Shown here one piece after another: positions 2,890 through 53,064 of a stretch of 64,000 nt of DNA; positions within the stretch are counted from its first letter, which is position 1; every line of letters starts with the position of its first letter. The position numbers were made by a program, and so were the translations under genes. Below the pieces are notes generated by a model. That model made no database searches and was not told where the DNA came from. It worked only from the letters and a program-made list of their open reading frames with translations. The DNA is from Bacteriovorax sp. (GTDB lineage: Bacteria; Bdellovibrionota; Bacteriovoracia; Bacteriovoracales; Bacteriovoracaceae): NCBI GenBank assembly GCA_028710485.1, contig JAQTTZ010000009.1:1-64000 (forward strand). Direction: 5' to 3'.

Positions 2890-3335
2890 TGAGTAAGCTA
2901 CTCTTTTTCATCATATTAATATTTACAGAAGCTTTTGCCGCTGATCTTCCAGCTGCGTCTTCTACGTCCATGAAAAAAACTTTCATTGGGATCAAATATT
3001 TTTCAGAAATAATGGGTAATGTTCATCAAAATCCCTCGCGCTACTCTCAAGTTCTAACTACCATTAGTTGCAACCATCCTGTCAAAGTGATGAAAGAGAC
3101 TTCTAAAGATGGAAAAGATTTTGTTCTTTATGGTGAAGACAAGTGGAACCTGGTTACTGTCGGCCCCTACGAGGGATATGTCATGGCCGATTATTTAACA
3201 GATAAAAAAAATGTCTGCTTTGAAGAAGAATACTCCAAATTTTTTGATGGGCTTAATTTAGATATTAACGACCTCTATTATTGGGCGAGACTTTACGATC
3301 AATACGTCCAAGGGAAGTCAAAGGTTCGCCAATGA
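2889..3335 (+). CDS. Secreted protein with bacterial SH3-like domain
   Basis: I place the start at ATG 2889, overlapping the lapB stop, because GGAAGG lies just upstream and it gives a clean signal peptide (MSKLLFFIILIFTEAFA). An earlier in-frame ATG at 2877 would sit inside lapB. The mature protein of about 130 residues resembles a bacterial SH3 domain: a GNVHxNPSxxSxV strand near the start, then a Trp-Asn-x-Val and GYVMADYL segment. Such domains bind cell wall or ligands in the periplasm. Exact function is unknown. Its stop overlaps the next ATG. Confidence 0.72.
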   Translation: MSKLLFFIILIFTEAFAADLPAASSTSMKKTFIGIKYFSEIMGNVHQNPSRYSQVLTTISCNHPVKVMKETSKDGKDFVLYGEDKWNLVTVGPYEGYVMADYLTDKKNVCFEEEYSKFFDGLNLDINDLYYWARLYDQYVQGKSKVRQ

Positions 3336-10463: not shown

Positions 10464-10477
10464 TTAATATTTTAAAA

Positions 10478-10508
10478 AGCCCACTCACGTACGAGTGGGC
10501 TTTTTTTA
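10478..10508 (+). terminator. Rho-independent terminator
   Basis: A 9-bp perfect stem AGCCCACTC / GAGTGGGCT with the loop ACGTAC is followed directly by a run of T. It closes the small gene at 10233-10463. Confidence 0.9.
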
Positions 10509-10567
10509 TTCCCAGGATGGGATGTATGTCTGCGTGAGGCAGGAGCCGGAGCAGACCTTTAGGAAAG
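10509..10567 (+). promoter_or_regulatory. Structured leader element, copy A
   Basis: Two hairpins can be drawn. The first is TCCCA / TGGGA with a 3-nt loop. The second is GTCTGC / GCAGAC enclosing an inner GGC / GCC helix, with G-rich GA-type internal loop strands GTGA and GGA. It starts directly after the T-run of the preceding terminator and ends at the AGGAAAG ribosome-binding site of the HD-domain gene. A near copy sits at 16285. All differences between copies fall in loops. Confidence 0.6.
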
Positions 10568-10573
10568 TTGAAC

Positions 10574-12034
10574 ATGGAAGTCGCAACTCGGTCTCAAAGT
10601 CATACAAAAAATCATGTCATTTATGATCCTATTTATGGTTTTATTAAACTCAATCAAATTGAATGGGAAATAATCTCTTCACCTTTTTACCAACGTCTTC
10701 GCTGGATTAAGCAATTAGGTTTTTCTTGTTATATTTTTCCAGGTGCGGAACACTCACGATTTCATCACTCTATTGGAGTCATGTACAACGCTCATAAAAT
10801 TTTAGAGTCGTGTGGAAGGGCCGTTTCAGAAAAAGATCTGATGGATCTCGATTGCCTGACACCTGAGGCGATCTATCACAAGAGTTTGCGACTTGCGGCC
10901 TTGATGCATGATCTTGGAACCTTTCTTTTTTCTCATACTACAGAAGGTGCCTATATCGATTACGGTGAAACTACTCACTCTAAAGGTGGAAAGGGTTTAC
11001 CTGATGATCACGAAAATTTGGGTTCATTCATTATTAAGAACACCGATTACGATGGGGGGATCGCTCATATTTTAAAAAAATATGGAATCAGTCCTCAACG
11101 CATTTCAGATCTAGTGAAAGGTGTTGATGAATCTATTCTTGCCAATCAAATACTTCATTCGGAAGTCGATTGCGATCGCATGGATTATCTTCTTCGGGAT
11201 GCTCACTATACAGGATTAAAATACGGTTCATACGATCGCGATTATTTGCTTTATCATTTTCAAGTCAAGCGGGTAGATAACCACGACATCCTAACTATTC
11301 GTCACAATGCTCTTCATTGTGTGGAAGATTTTTTAACGTCGAGATTCGCTTGGTACTCCCAAGTTATTAGATCGCCTCGAGGTGCTAAGTTCGATGCAAT
11401 TGCAGAAACCATTTGCCATTATTTCCTGGAGAAGGGGTATATCTATCGCTACAGCGAGCTCTTGGAAATGATTGAAAAAGATCCAATGAAATTTTACGGA
11501 TTCAACGATAATTATTTTATGACTTTGGTTCATAAACATTTATTAAATGGTGACCTTGATAAAAATCCAAAAATTAAAGACATGGCAAAAACGATCCTAT
11601 TGGCAACAGGTGGAAAAGCGATTCGCTGTGAAGAATTCAAATCGCGTCTTTTATCTCAAGATGATCCTCAGGCCTTAGAAAAATACTCTAAACGAGCGAC
11701 CCAAAAAGCTCAAGAAATCGAGGAATTCCTAAAAAAGAAAGGTGGCCCTGCTGATTGGATGATCTACGATATTCCCAAAAAAGCCATCATGTTCGTTAAG
11801 TCTCCCAAAAATGTGGCCAAAAACTCTTCTGCCCAGCTCAATAATGTCCTTCTTGATCGAGACCCGGTCAAAATCGCTATGGAGAATGGCGAAGTCTTGC
11901 TTTTGGCGGAGGTTGAAAATTCCCTGATTTCTAAGCTATTTAATAGCAATAACTTTATTCCAAATGTTTATTGCTCAACTTCTGCCTATGAACTTCTTCT
12001 ATCGGAAGGGGTCATTGAGGGCAGCTTTAGCTAG
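10574..12034 (+). CDS. HD-domain phosphohydrolase (COG1078/dGTPase-like)
   Basis: The start is ATG 10574, with AGGAAAG 7 nt upstream; an in-frame TTG at 10568 is too close to that site. The 486-residue protein carries the metal-binding HD pattern: HSRFHHSIG (His60-His65), His112-Asp113 in LMHDLG, HENLG, and the conserved VDCDRMDYLLRDAHYTG block of the COG1078 group related to dGTPases and SAMHD1. Substrate is probably a (d)NTP or other phosphorylated nucleotide; the exact one cannot be read from the sequence. A structured leader precedes it, the same as that before xseA, suggesting shared control of nucleotide/DNA metabolism. Confidence 0.85.
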   Translation: MEVATRSQSHTKNHVIYDPIYGFIKLNQIEWEIISSPFYQRLRWIKQLGFSCYIFPGAEHSRFHHSIGVMYNAHKILESCGRAVSEKDLMDLDCLTPEAIYHKSLRLAALMHDLGTFLFSHTTEGAYIDYGETTHSKGGKGLPDDHENLGSFIIKNTDYDGGIAHILKKYGISPQRISDLVKGVDESILANQILHSEVDCDRMDYLLRDAHYTGLKYGSYDRDYLLYHFQVKRVDNHDILTIRHNALHCVEDFLTSRFAWYSQVIRSPRGAKFDAIAETICHYFLEKGYIYRYSELLEMIEKDPMKFYGFNDNYFMTLVHKHLLNGDLDKNPKIKDMAKTILLATGGKAIRCEEFKSRLLSQDDPQALEKYSKRATQKAQEIEEFLKKKGGPADWMIYDIPKKAIMFVKSPKNVAKNSSAQLNNVLLDRDPVKIAMENGEVLLLAEVENSLISKLFNSNNFIPNVYCSTSAYELLLSEGVIEGSFS

Positions 12035-16284: not shown

Positions 16285-16341
16285 TTATTCCCAGTATGGG
16301 ATGTATGTCTGCGAGAGGCATGGGCCGAAGCAGACACTTGG
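16285..16341 (+). promoter_or_regulatory. Structured leader element, copy B
   Basis: It fills the gap between the ctpA stop and xseA. It shares about 45 of 50 positions with copy A at 10509: the same TCCCA / TGGGA hairpin, the same GTCTGC / GCAGAC stem and inner GGC / GCC helix. Loop strands differ (GAGA and GAA in place of GTGA and GGA; ATGG in place of AGGA). No separate promoter is visible, so it is probably transcribed from ctpA. Confidence 0.6.
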
Positions 16342-16351
16342 ATAATATTGA

Positions 16352-17641
16352 ATGGATCTCGAAAGCAAAAATGTTTCTCAAGTCATTTCAGAAATAAAAA
16401 ATTTACTGGAAACAGAATTCACCAATATTACAATTGTTGGGGAGACCACTAATCTCTCGCTTTCTTCATCAGGTCACTGGTATTTTACGCTCTCAGATAA
16501 AGATGCATCAATAAGTGCGGCACTTTTTAAAATGGATGCCCTCAGAAACCCTCTGATAAAACAAATTAAAGACGGCGAGAAGGTCATTGTCGTAGGCGAT
16601 ATCAATGTTTATCCAAAACGTGGAACCTTCCAAGTCATCGTAAAAAAAATTGTTCCCTTGGGTGTCGGAGATTTAAAAGAGCAATTCGAAAAACTAAAAC
16701 GTCGACTTGCCAATGAAGGGCTGTTTGATCTCGATCGAAAAAAACTCATTCCACCACTTCCTAAAAGAGTCGCAATTATTACCGCCCTTCGCGGAGCGGC
16801 CCTTCAGGATTTTATCAATATCTATAAACGGCGATCTATCTGGATGGACTTAGTGGTTCTCCCCACTTTAGTTCAAGGAGAAGATGCTGCAAGATCCATT
16901 CGTGCGTCTCTTCACAAAATTATAAAATATTCGCTAGACGCTGAACCTGCAAAAAAGATCGATATTATCGTTCTTACCAGAGGGGGAGGAAGCCTGGAAG
17001 ATCTATGGGCCTTTAATGATGAGGGACTTGCTTGGGATTTATTTAATTGCCCGATTCCAACGATAAGTGCCGTCGGTCACGAAGTGGATTTCTCTATTGC
17101 CGATTTTGTTTGTGATTTAAGAGCGGAAACTCCTTCCGCGGCAGCCGAAGTGATTACGCACCAACAAACATTGATCAAAGAAAAAATGCGCACCCTTAAA
17201 GGAAGATTATTAAGCAATATTGAAATAAAAATCAGTCGTGTGAACAACCGACTTAAATATGCTCATCCCCATACTATTTTGAATATTATCTGGGGCGTTT
17301 ATAATAGTTATCAAAAAAGACTCAATCGTTGTGATATACAAAAAAGACTTAATGAACTGACTCATCTTCATGAATTTTACCAGAGGCTAGATGAGAGTAT
17401 TATAGATCTAAAAATTCTCTTAAAAGAGAAATTAGCTACACTCAACCACCGACTTGATAAATCAAGTGGTCTCCTGAATGTGCTAAATCCAAAAAATGTT
17501 CTCGAAAGAGGATATGGTTATGTTGAAACTCTTGAAGGTGCCGTCGTTGCCTCAGGCCATGATCTCGACAAATTGCCACATGATACTCAGTTGAATTTAT
17601 GTTTTCACGACGGAAAAAGATTAATTAAAAAGATTGAATAG
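16352..17641 (+). CDS. xseA: Exodeoxyribonuclease VII large subunit
   Basis: The 429-residue protein begins with an OB-fold (about 10-100, TNLSLSSSGHWYFTLSDKDASI) and continues into the ExoVII nuclease domain with the signatures GGGSLEDLWAFNDE, SAVGHEVDFSIADFVCDLRAETPSAAAE and a C-terminal LERGYGYV. ExoVII degrades single-stranded DNA to oligonucleotides. The xseB small subunit is not adjacent. The 68-nt gap before it is occupied by a structured leader element, and it runs straight into the histidine-kinase-like gene. Confidence 0.95.
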   Translation: MDLESKNVSQVISEIKNLLETEFTNITIVGETTNLSLSSSGHWYFTLSDKDASISAALFKMDALRNPLIKQIKDGEKVIVVGDINVYPKRGTFQVIVKKIVPLGVGDLKEQFEKLKRRLANEGLFDLDRKKLIPPLPKRVAIITALRGAALQDFINIYKRRSIWMDLVVLPTLVQGEDAARSIRASLHKIIKYSLDAEPAKKIDIIVLTRGGGSLEDLWAFNDEGLAWDLFNCPIPTISAVGHEVDFSIADFVCDLRAETPSAAAEVITHQQTLIKEKMRTLKGRLLSNIEIKISRVNNRLKYAHPHTILNIIWGVYNSYQKRLNRCDIQKRLNELTHLHEFYQRLDESIIDLKILLKEKLATLNHRLDKSSGLLNVLNPKNVLERGYGYVETLEGAVVASGHDLDKLPHDTQLNLCFHDGKRLIKKIE

Positions 17642-52644: not shown

Positions 52645-53064
52645 ATGAAATTTTTTTTAGTTTTAATTTTTCTATTGGGTAGTTTCTCTAGCTTTGCTAG
52701 CGATAAGATAATCATAAAAAAAGGTATCCGAGTGGTCTATGATGGTAGTTTAGGTACTACCTATACCGGCAGTGTTCTTGAAATTTTTAATAATGGGAAA
52801 GTTCGTATCTCACCCGATGGATTTTTTTCCACCTCATCAGTGCAACTTACAAAGAGCGAAATAGGAATTGGATTCAGATGTTCTGGTAATTTGTGTGTTG
52901 GAGACAGAGTGAGCTTTAAAGGTAATCTTGGCGACTATAGTGGAACTGTTCTTGAAATTTTTAATAATGGGAAAGTTAGTATTTCACCTGATGGATTCTT
53001 TTCTCCTTCATCGGTATATCGTACGGTGACCGAATTGGGGTACGAATCGAATTTTTATAACTAG
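52645..53064 (+). CDS. Secreted protein of two tandem repeats
   Basis: The 139-residue product has a signal peptide (cleavage after SFA, about residue 18) and two copies of a domain of about 58 residues. Each contains GSVLEIFNNGKVRISPDGFFSxSSV (second copy GTVLEIFNNGKVSI...). The units look like small SH3-like beta barrels. Part of the duplication is exact at DNA level, so it is recent or maintained by conversion. GCGAGG precedes the start and a strong terminator follows. Function unknown. Confidence 0.75.
   Translation: MKFFLVLIFLLGSFSSFASDKIIIKKGIRVVYDGSLGTTYTGSVLEIFNNGKVRISPDGFFSTSSVQLTKSEIGIGFRCSGNLCVGDRVSFKGNLGDYSGTVLEIFNNGKVSISPDGFFSPSSVYRTVTELGYESNFYN
52773..52803 (+). repeat. 31-bp exact direct repeat, copy 1
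   Basis: Begins TGTTCTTGAAATTTTTAATA; identical to 52947-52977, 174 bp (58 codons) apart, inside the tandem-repeat gene. Confidence 0.9.
52947..52977 (+). repeat. 31-bp exact direct repeat, copy 2
   Basis: Identical to 52773-52803. Confidence 0.9.

Follow-up and report, generated by a model that had tools for sequence, protein, structure and literature searches.

The REP and REPIN sequences of bacteria are short extragenic hairpins with a tetranucleotide at the 5' foot, non-autonomous and associated with the RAYT transposase (TnpA-REP), and in E. coli their stem contains a mismatch (excerpts of PMC8266576 and PMC3733652). Group IIC introns insert just 3' of terminators or other stem-loops, at a site of 3-4 nt (excerpt of PMC7923331). 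In the case of IS1272, transposition replaces a stem-loop; the target is picked by its hairpin structure and no target-site duplication (TSD) is formed (excerpt of PMC5678879). Bacterial MITEs and other small repeats such as BOX, RUP and SPRITE are small, structured, intergenic and non-autonomous (excerpt of PMC10969869).

The 51-nt repeat described here, from Bacteriovorax sp., resembles each of these in part. It is probably a non-autonomous, REP-like mobile DNA repeat that inserts 3' of a hairpin followed by TTAT, using an enzyme supplied in trans. Like the REPs of the excerpts cited it consists of short extragenic hairpins with a tetranucleotide at the 5' foot and a mismatch within a stem, but its two hairpins are unlike and in direct order, the tetranucleotides are TTAT and GTAT where REPs have GTAG or CGTC, no more than 26 copies per genome were seen, and its position behind hairpins is strongly marked. 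With group IIC introns, as the excerpt presents them, it shares only the target, having neither a ribozyme core nor a reverse transcriptase (RT) in its 51 nt. As with IS1272 (same excerpt), the target is chosen by a hairpin and there is no TSD, but IS1272 encodes a transposase and removes the target hairpin, which the present element usually leaves in place. It is also small, structured, intergenic and non-autonomous in the manner of the MITEs, BOX, RUP and SPRITE of the excerpt, and differs from MITEs in that it has no terminal inverted repeats and no TSD was seen. In the open-access literature on terminator-linked, hairpin-associated or Bacteriovorax/Bacteriovoracaceae repeats, as far as the texts were available, there was no description of this 51-nt element.

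The repeat in the window and in the family

The window is the whole 64,000-nt stretch of DNA that was analysed, and its repeat search returned a pair of 51-nt copies with 90% identity (repeat family D3; Table 1). A sequence-only reading had already noted a near-identical pair of about 50 nt, with both stems invariant and all differences in a loop or the internal loop. This is borne out, as the five differences comprise one in the loop of hairpin H1, two in the loop of hairpin H2, two in the internal loop and none in the stems. Each copy folds alone into two hairpins (z -3.2 and -3.5 versus shuffles). Copy 1 lies 17 nt before the start codon of an HD-domain gene and copy 2 16 nt before that of xseA. 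The same reading recognised no riboswitch, and only a tRNA exceeded the gathering score in an Rfam scan of the window, with no family matching either copy and no intron match. Among the best weak Rfam matches, the top three alignments fall on the intrinsic terminator directly 5' of copy 1 and not on the element. This terminator, absent from the earlier reading, is the key to understanding the repeat. Elsewhere in the window, at 52761-53039, there are two 105-nt direct repeats (D1) with 79% identity and a spacing of 174.

Table 1. Coordinates of the two element copies and adjoining features in the window
Feature	Position	Strand	Basis or remark
Intrinsic terminator of upstream small ORF, target hairpin of copy 1	10474..10505	+	stem AAAAAGCCCACTC/GAGTGGGCTTTTT; kept in element-free relatives
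Copy 1, 51-nt element	10506..10556	+	repeat search, BLAST, covariance model
TTAT, 5' foot of copy 1	10506..10509	+	also in empty sites, e.g. L168, L170
Hairpin H1 of copy 1, TCCCA-GGA-TGGGA	10510..10522	+	folding, covariation
Linker TGTAT of copy 1	10523..10527	+	linker tally over 79 copies
Hairpin H2 of copy 1, GTCTGC-GTGA-GGC-AGGA-GCC-GGA-GCAGAC	10528..10556	+	folding, covariation, loop tally
HD-domain protein gene (PF01966), downstream of copy 1, outside element	10574..12034	+	domain match
Copy 2 of element, right after stop codon of S41/PDZ protease, without preceding terminator	16285..16335	+	
H1 of copy 2	16289..16301	+	folding
H2 of copy 2	16307..16335	+	folding
xseA (PF02601), downstream of copy 2, outside element	16352..17641	+	domain match

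In the genome to which the window belongs (G000; 4.3 Mb on 234 contigs, contamination estimate 8%), BLAST gave 18 matches with E <= 1.5e-4, and 17 of these were used to build a covariance model, R1. With this model 26 copies were found in the same genome at E <= 1.4e-4, which places the repeat far above chance. When R1 was run on 57 genomes of relatives and phylum members (E <= 1), there were at least 16 matches in G002 and at least 11 in G005, both of the same genus, and no convincing match among those listed for G003, G006, G008 and G009 of that genus. A second model, R2, was made from 79 copies (alignment A3: 70 fetched loci, E <= 0.001). At E <= 0.001 it matched at least 44 of 129 family genomes and at least 19 of 48 genera, with a patchy distribution even inside a genus; searches over 40 genomes had stricter filters, and their counts are therefore given as minima. 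A search of 368 phylum genomes with R2 also matched at least 44, all of the same family, and among the matches listed none lay outside it. Those relatives of the HD locus that have names are Bacteriovorax and Bacteriovoracaceae metagenome-assembled genomes. Carriage by phages or plasmids was considered and rejected: blastn of copy 1 against plasmid and phage sequences gave short partial matches and no full copy, and among viral contigs a pattern search found no full copy and 12 matches to the H2 core only, of which the two that were read (L225 and L229) resemble chance.

Structure and covariation

The consensus of the element reads TTAT, NNCCA-GGA-TGGNN, TGTAT, a 6-bp stem strand, GAGA, GGC-AGGA-GCC, GAA and the second strand of the 6-bp stem. 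There is thus a 5-bp hairpin H1 with an AGGAT loop, a TGTAT linker, and a hairpin H2 with an internal loop of the GAGA/GAA type and an AGGA loop. The 5' end, TTAT..., is not repeated in inverted form at the 3' end, ...GCAGAC, and the two hairpins are separate, so that terminal inverted repeats are lacking. TTAT is present at the 5' foot in 64 of the 85 copies whose surroundings were analysed. Over 79 copies, the linker is TGTAT in 41 and GGTAT in 15 (together 56), H1 has CAGGATG in 51, and the inner part of H2 is GGCAGGAGCC in 36. The internal loop is exactly GAGA/GAA in 20/79, close variants are found in many, and in at least 12/79 it is reversed, with the three-base strand first.

The stems vary freely, and the loops and the one internal mismatch are kept. 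Among 78 distinct copies 93.4% of the cells are paired, two-sided changes number 201 versus 57 after shuffling, and the covariation score is 0.489 against 0.163 for shuffled and at most 0.10 for slid controls; since this alignment was fitted to the covariance model, these values are biased towards the model structure. A model-free alignment of 17 copies agrees, with 23 two-sided cells versus 8.2 shuffled, a number reached in 0 of 500 shuffles. When folded as single-stranded DNA (ssDNA), the element again forms both hairpins (z -3.9 to -5.0), and the complement of copy 1 folds likewise. G-U pairs are rare (29 cells summed over the 78-copy alignment), which speaks mildly for pairing in DNA.

The loop sequences bring to mind a double hairpin bound by CsrA, as a sponge or a regulatory site. 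The CAGGATG of H1 and the GGA loops presumably resemble the CsrB repeat; GGA occurs in the H1 loop in 65/79 copies and in the H2 loop in 54/79, and CsrA is matched in 48 of 57 genomes. Only 46/79 copies have GGA in both loops, however, and the internal loop is also conserved, for which CsrA would have no need. CsrA is moreover found in genomes both with and without the element, and a position after terminators should exclude the element from many transcripts. Of the readings considered here, a CsrA site is among the most improbable.

Position behind hairpins and empty sites

For the study of gene context, 91 of the R1 matches from the 57 genomes were used, with E up to about 0.003 plus eight weaker ones, leaving out G000:C176:17315, G000:C176:62229, G000:C59:11834 and G005:C11:39241. 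After removal of six copies that abut an upstream copy, 85 primary copies were retained, weak or partial matches included. A strong hairpin (score >= 18, ending within about 11 nt of the element edge) is found upstream in 48 of the 85 and downstream in 1. By the same test, control sites in these loci have hairpins in 2-5% of cases (TTAT 75/3333, TTTTAT 26/557). A second set of 22 copies from G076, G084, G142 and G143 has 11 with a hairpin upstream and 1 downstream. By the score used, 37/85 and 11/22 copies have no strong upstream hairpin. Most of the upstream hairpins are, by eye, intrinsic terminators that differ from one another in the sequence of the stem. Those of L363, L367 and L375 have no T-run, TTAT following at once or after a few bases; the L367 and L375 hairpins score just below the threshold.

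With neighbouring genes called by the heuristic of ORF length only, the gene on the upstream side is directed towards the element in 68/85 copies. On the downstream side 42 genes are co-directional, 39 opposed and 4 undetermined. Together with the hairpin counts, this makes it an element of 3' ends that becomes a 5' leader merely by accident. Among 414 ORFs from 106 loci, no shared function of the neighbours was found beyond several flagellin-like loci. Ten of the 106 loci (L006, L051, L079, L109 and others) adjoin genes that belong to one protein cluster, the longest member of which is a flagellin by eye. At one orthologous site of this kind the element is present in four species, with stems that differ in sequence; in G001 and G013 all pairs are kept, and in G000 and G002 some are broken. 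Either a retained function or more than one insertion at a hot spot could account for this.

Head-to-tail arrays of about 51-nt units without spacer also exist, and the later units in these have CGAT ahead of them, not TTAT. In G142, L377 has a copy at 3027-3077 between two AAAAAAAGGGCCCCAT stretches, which looks like a terminator duplicated to either side of the element.

Comparison of filled and empty sites is possible in sequenced sister species. At murG, the element is present in G000 and absent in 12 of 12 same-genus relatives that have the gene (G001-G005, G007-G013), the nearest of which is 92% identical in MurG. Eleven of these 12 empty sites have a hairpin at the threshold; in several of the 12 the sequence leading to the start codon is ...TTCTTATT or ...TTTTTATT. 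At the HD locus, none of the 11 related loci (L164-L174, of which L171 starts within the site) has a full copy. L168 and L170 show the terminator, TTAT and the ribosome-binding site with almost nothing between, and L164 and L165 have apparent remnants of the element. In L166 a different short hairpin, TGTCTGT...ACAGACA, follows the same terminator, in the place that the element occupies in the window. Neither of the two filled/empty sites, murG and HD, shows a visible target duplication. The 51-nt unit has also dispersed recently: G143 has three copies that do not differ at any of 51 nt (52 in one pair) and have unrelated flanks, and G142 is syntenic with one of these but has no copy there, other differences being present as well.

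Other sites are less simple. At obgE, G000 has a remnant consisting of H1 only, and the G002 sequence is alike in length and start, not in structure. The xseA site of relatives L165 and L166 contains a terminator and lacks the element, whereas the window has the element without a terminator; same-genus G004 has a diverged copy (E 8.8e-7). This points to an old insertion, possibly with loss, or with replacement of the hairpin as in IS1272.

These observations bear on the alternative that the repeat is a cis-regulatory RNA, controlling the gene downstream as a riboswitch or as a leader bound by protein. The earlier reading had put forward a new metabolite- or protein-binding leader, or else an interspersed element, and had named as support, in a covariance-model search, many copies in 5' leaders of related genes with compensatory changes in both stems. 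The covariation is indeed strong, and the conserved loops would suit a leader. The window, murG and dnaB-like (by eye) copies lie just before a start codon, and at the flagellin site stems have changed yet remain fully paired in two of the four species. Against this, the copies sit after terminators and not in leaders of related genes, and the next gene is almost as often opposed as co-directional. An HD gene and xseA do follow the window copies, but the theme of nucleotide or DNA metabolism seen in them does not extend to the family, whose neighbours lack a common function. The element is also missing at the same genes in close relatives and, among the matches listed, from the sister genomes G003, G006 and G008, and there is no Rfam match. 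A leader is highly improbable and was rejected on gene context and empty sites. It was the interspersed-element option that gained support. For comparative scans this is a caution that a structured, covarying "leader" can be mobile DNA.

Spread by landing behind hairpins, mostly gene-end signals, thus points to a mobile element rather than a gene-control leader. Insertion would occur immediately 3' of a TTAT that adjoins a DNA hairpin, without visible target duplication, and intrinsic terminators would be most of the target sites because their T-tracts often run into TTAT. A TTAT and a GTAT, one at the 5' foot of each hairpin, give the element a REP-like build. It would move as ssDNA, and an enzyme acting in trans would recognise the loops together with the internal loop. 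A replication-strand bias, which a lagging-strand mechanism might have produced, is not seen (21 of 36 versus 22.4 expected, after 5 of 41 rows with weak skew were dropped). The presence of the flagellin-site copy in four species weighs against pure selfishness, and a kept function could explain it. The repeat offers a clean natural case of DNA being inserted beside hairpins and terminators; the unit is very small, and its limits can be placed to within one or two bases.

Candidate enzymes for mobilisation

No mobilising gene was found among the Y1/RAYT, RT and PF13751 genes and element neighbours examined, and the fact that none of these gene families accounts for the movement counts against the mobile-repeat reading. 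A possibility close at hand is that the element is a REP proper, moved by the genome's own RAYT (Y1 transposase). The tetranucleotide at the hairpin foot, the stem mismatch and the conserved loop are as expected for this, RAYT-type Y1 genes exist in many family genomes, and one RAYT clade (100/99) is restricted to G000, G001, G002, G004 and G005, all of which bear the element. The close sisters of this clade, however, are in G003 and G009, neither with a good element match, and the Y1/RAYT genes (41 of 57 genomes) occur both with and without the element. No Y1 match with E <= 1e-3 was obtained in element-bearing G017 and G024 (G024 is 87% complete), the element model, run on 20 Y1 loci from genomes that bear the element, gave no match at E <= 5, in further difference from REPs, and the tetranucleotides are TTAT/GTAT, not GTAG. 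Clade members lie beside a different motif, GGTTCCAGGAGACTT and its kin. As the Y1 loci examined show no link to the element, an IS200/IS605 or RAYT mover was rejected, and a REP in the strict sense is unlikely. The RAYT loci L236, L242, L238, L243, L331, L302, L316 and L318 have their own flanking motif (GGTTCCAGGAGACTT, GGTTCCAGGAACC, GGTGCCAGCAGACTT and variants), which is a separate REP-like family on one or both sides of the gene.

A second possibility is the relic of a retroelement with targeting like that of group IIC introns, that is, a stem-loop plus a 3-4 nt IBS1, here TTAT. The element and these introns share their target logic, with insertion on the 3' side of a hairpin and a short T-rich tetranucleotide (introns as in the excerpt of PMC7923331), and G029 and G034, which bear the element, do have RT genes. 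On the other hand, a search with PF00078 (RVT_1) at E <= 1e-3 found nothing in ten genomes that bear the element (G000, G001, G002, G005, G011, G013, G017, G020, G024 and G025), the window has no Rfam intron match, and 51 nt is too short for an intron core. A mover of the RT or group II type was rejected on the absence of RT from those ten genomes, and the relic is very unlikely.

An IS1182-type mover was also rejected: PF13751, which we take to be a domain of IS1182-type enzymes, was found in 1 of the 18 element-bearing genomes searched, and there below its cut-off, another point of difference from IS1272. No recurrent transposase appeared among the 14 largest clusters of neighbouring proteins (414 ORFs, 106 loci). 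Tentatively, and with rather less than an even chance, insertion into ssDNA directed by a hairpin plus TTAT, or a process like reverse splicing, might be carried out by a trans-acting enzyme outside the known RAYT, RT and DDE families, as part of a new kind of mobilisation system, the element having been seen so far in a single bacterial family, that of relatives of Bacteriovorax. The element provides a handle for finding the enzyme that writes beside terminator hairpins.

In G005, a repeat of about 170 nt (TAAGTAAGTTCATTTCATTATAACCAGATTTT...) occurs in five places (L114 at 252, 2405 and 7143; L107 at 2408; L121) and carries, close to one end, a variant of the element. It was rejected as the parent of the element, no gene being seen inside. 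An autonomous parent in which H1 and H2 stand apart was also considered and rejected. A pattern of H1 plus linker, with one mismatch allowed, had matches in 13 of 13 genomes and 0 in the reversed control. By eye these matches are known full copies, except for six rows (G001:C2, G005:C13:70696, G076:C22, G143:C149 and G143:C236 twice) that lie beyond the model matches listed.
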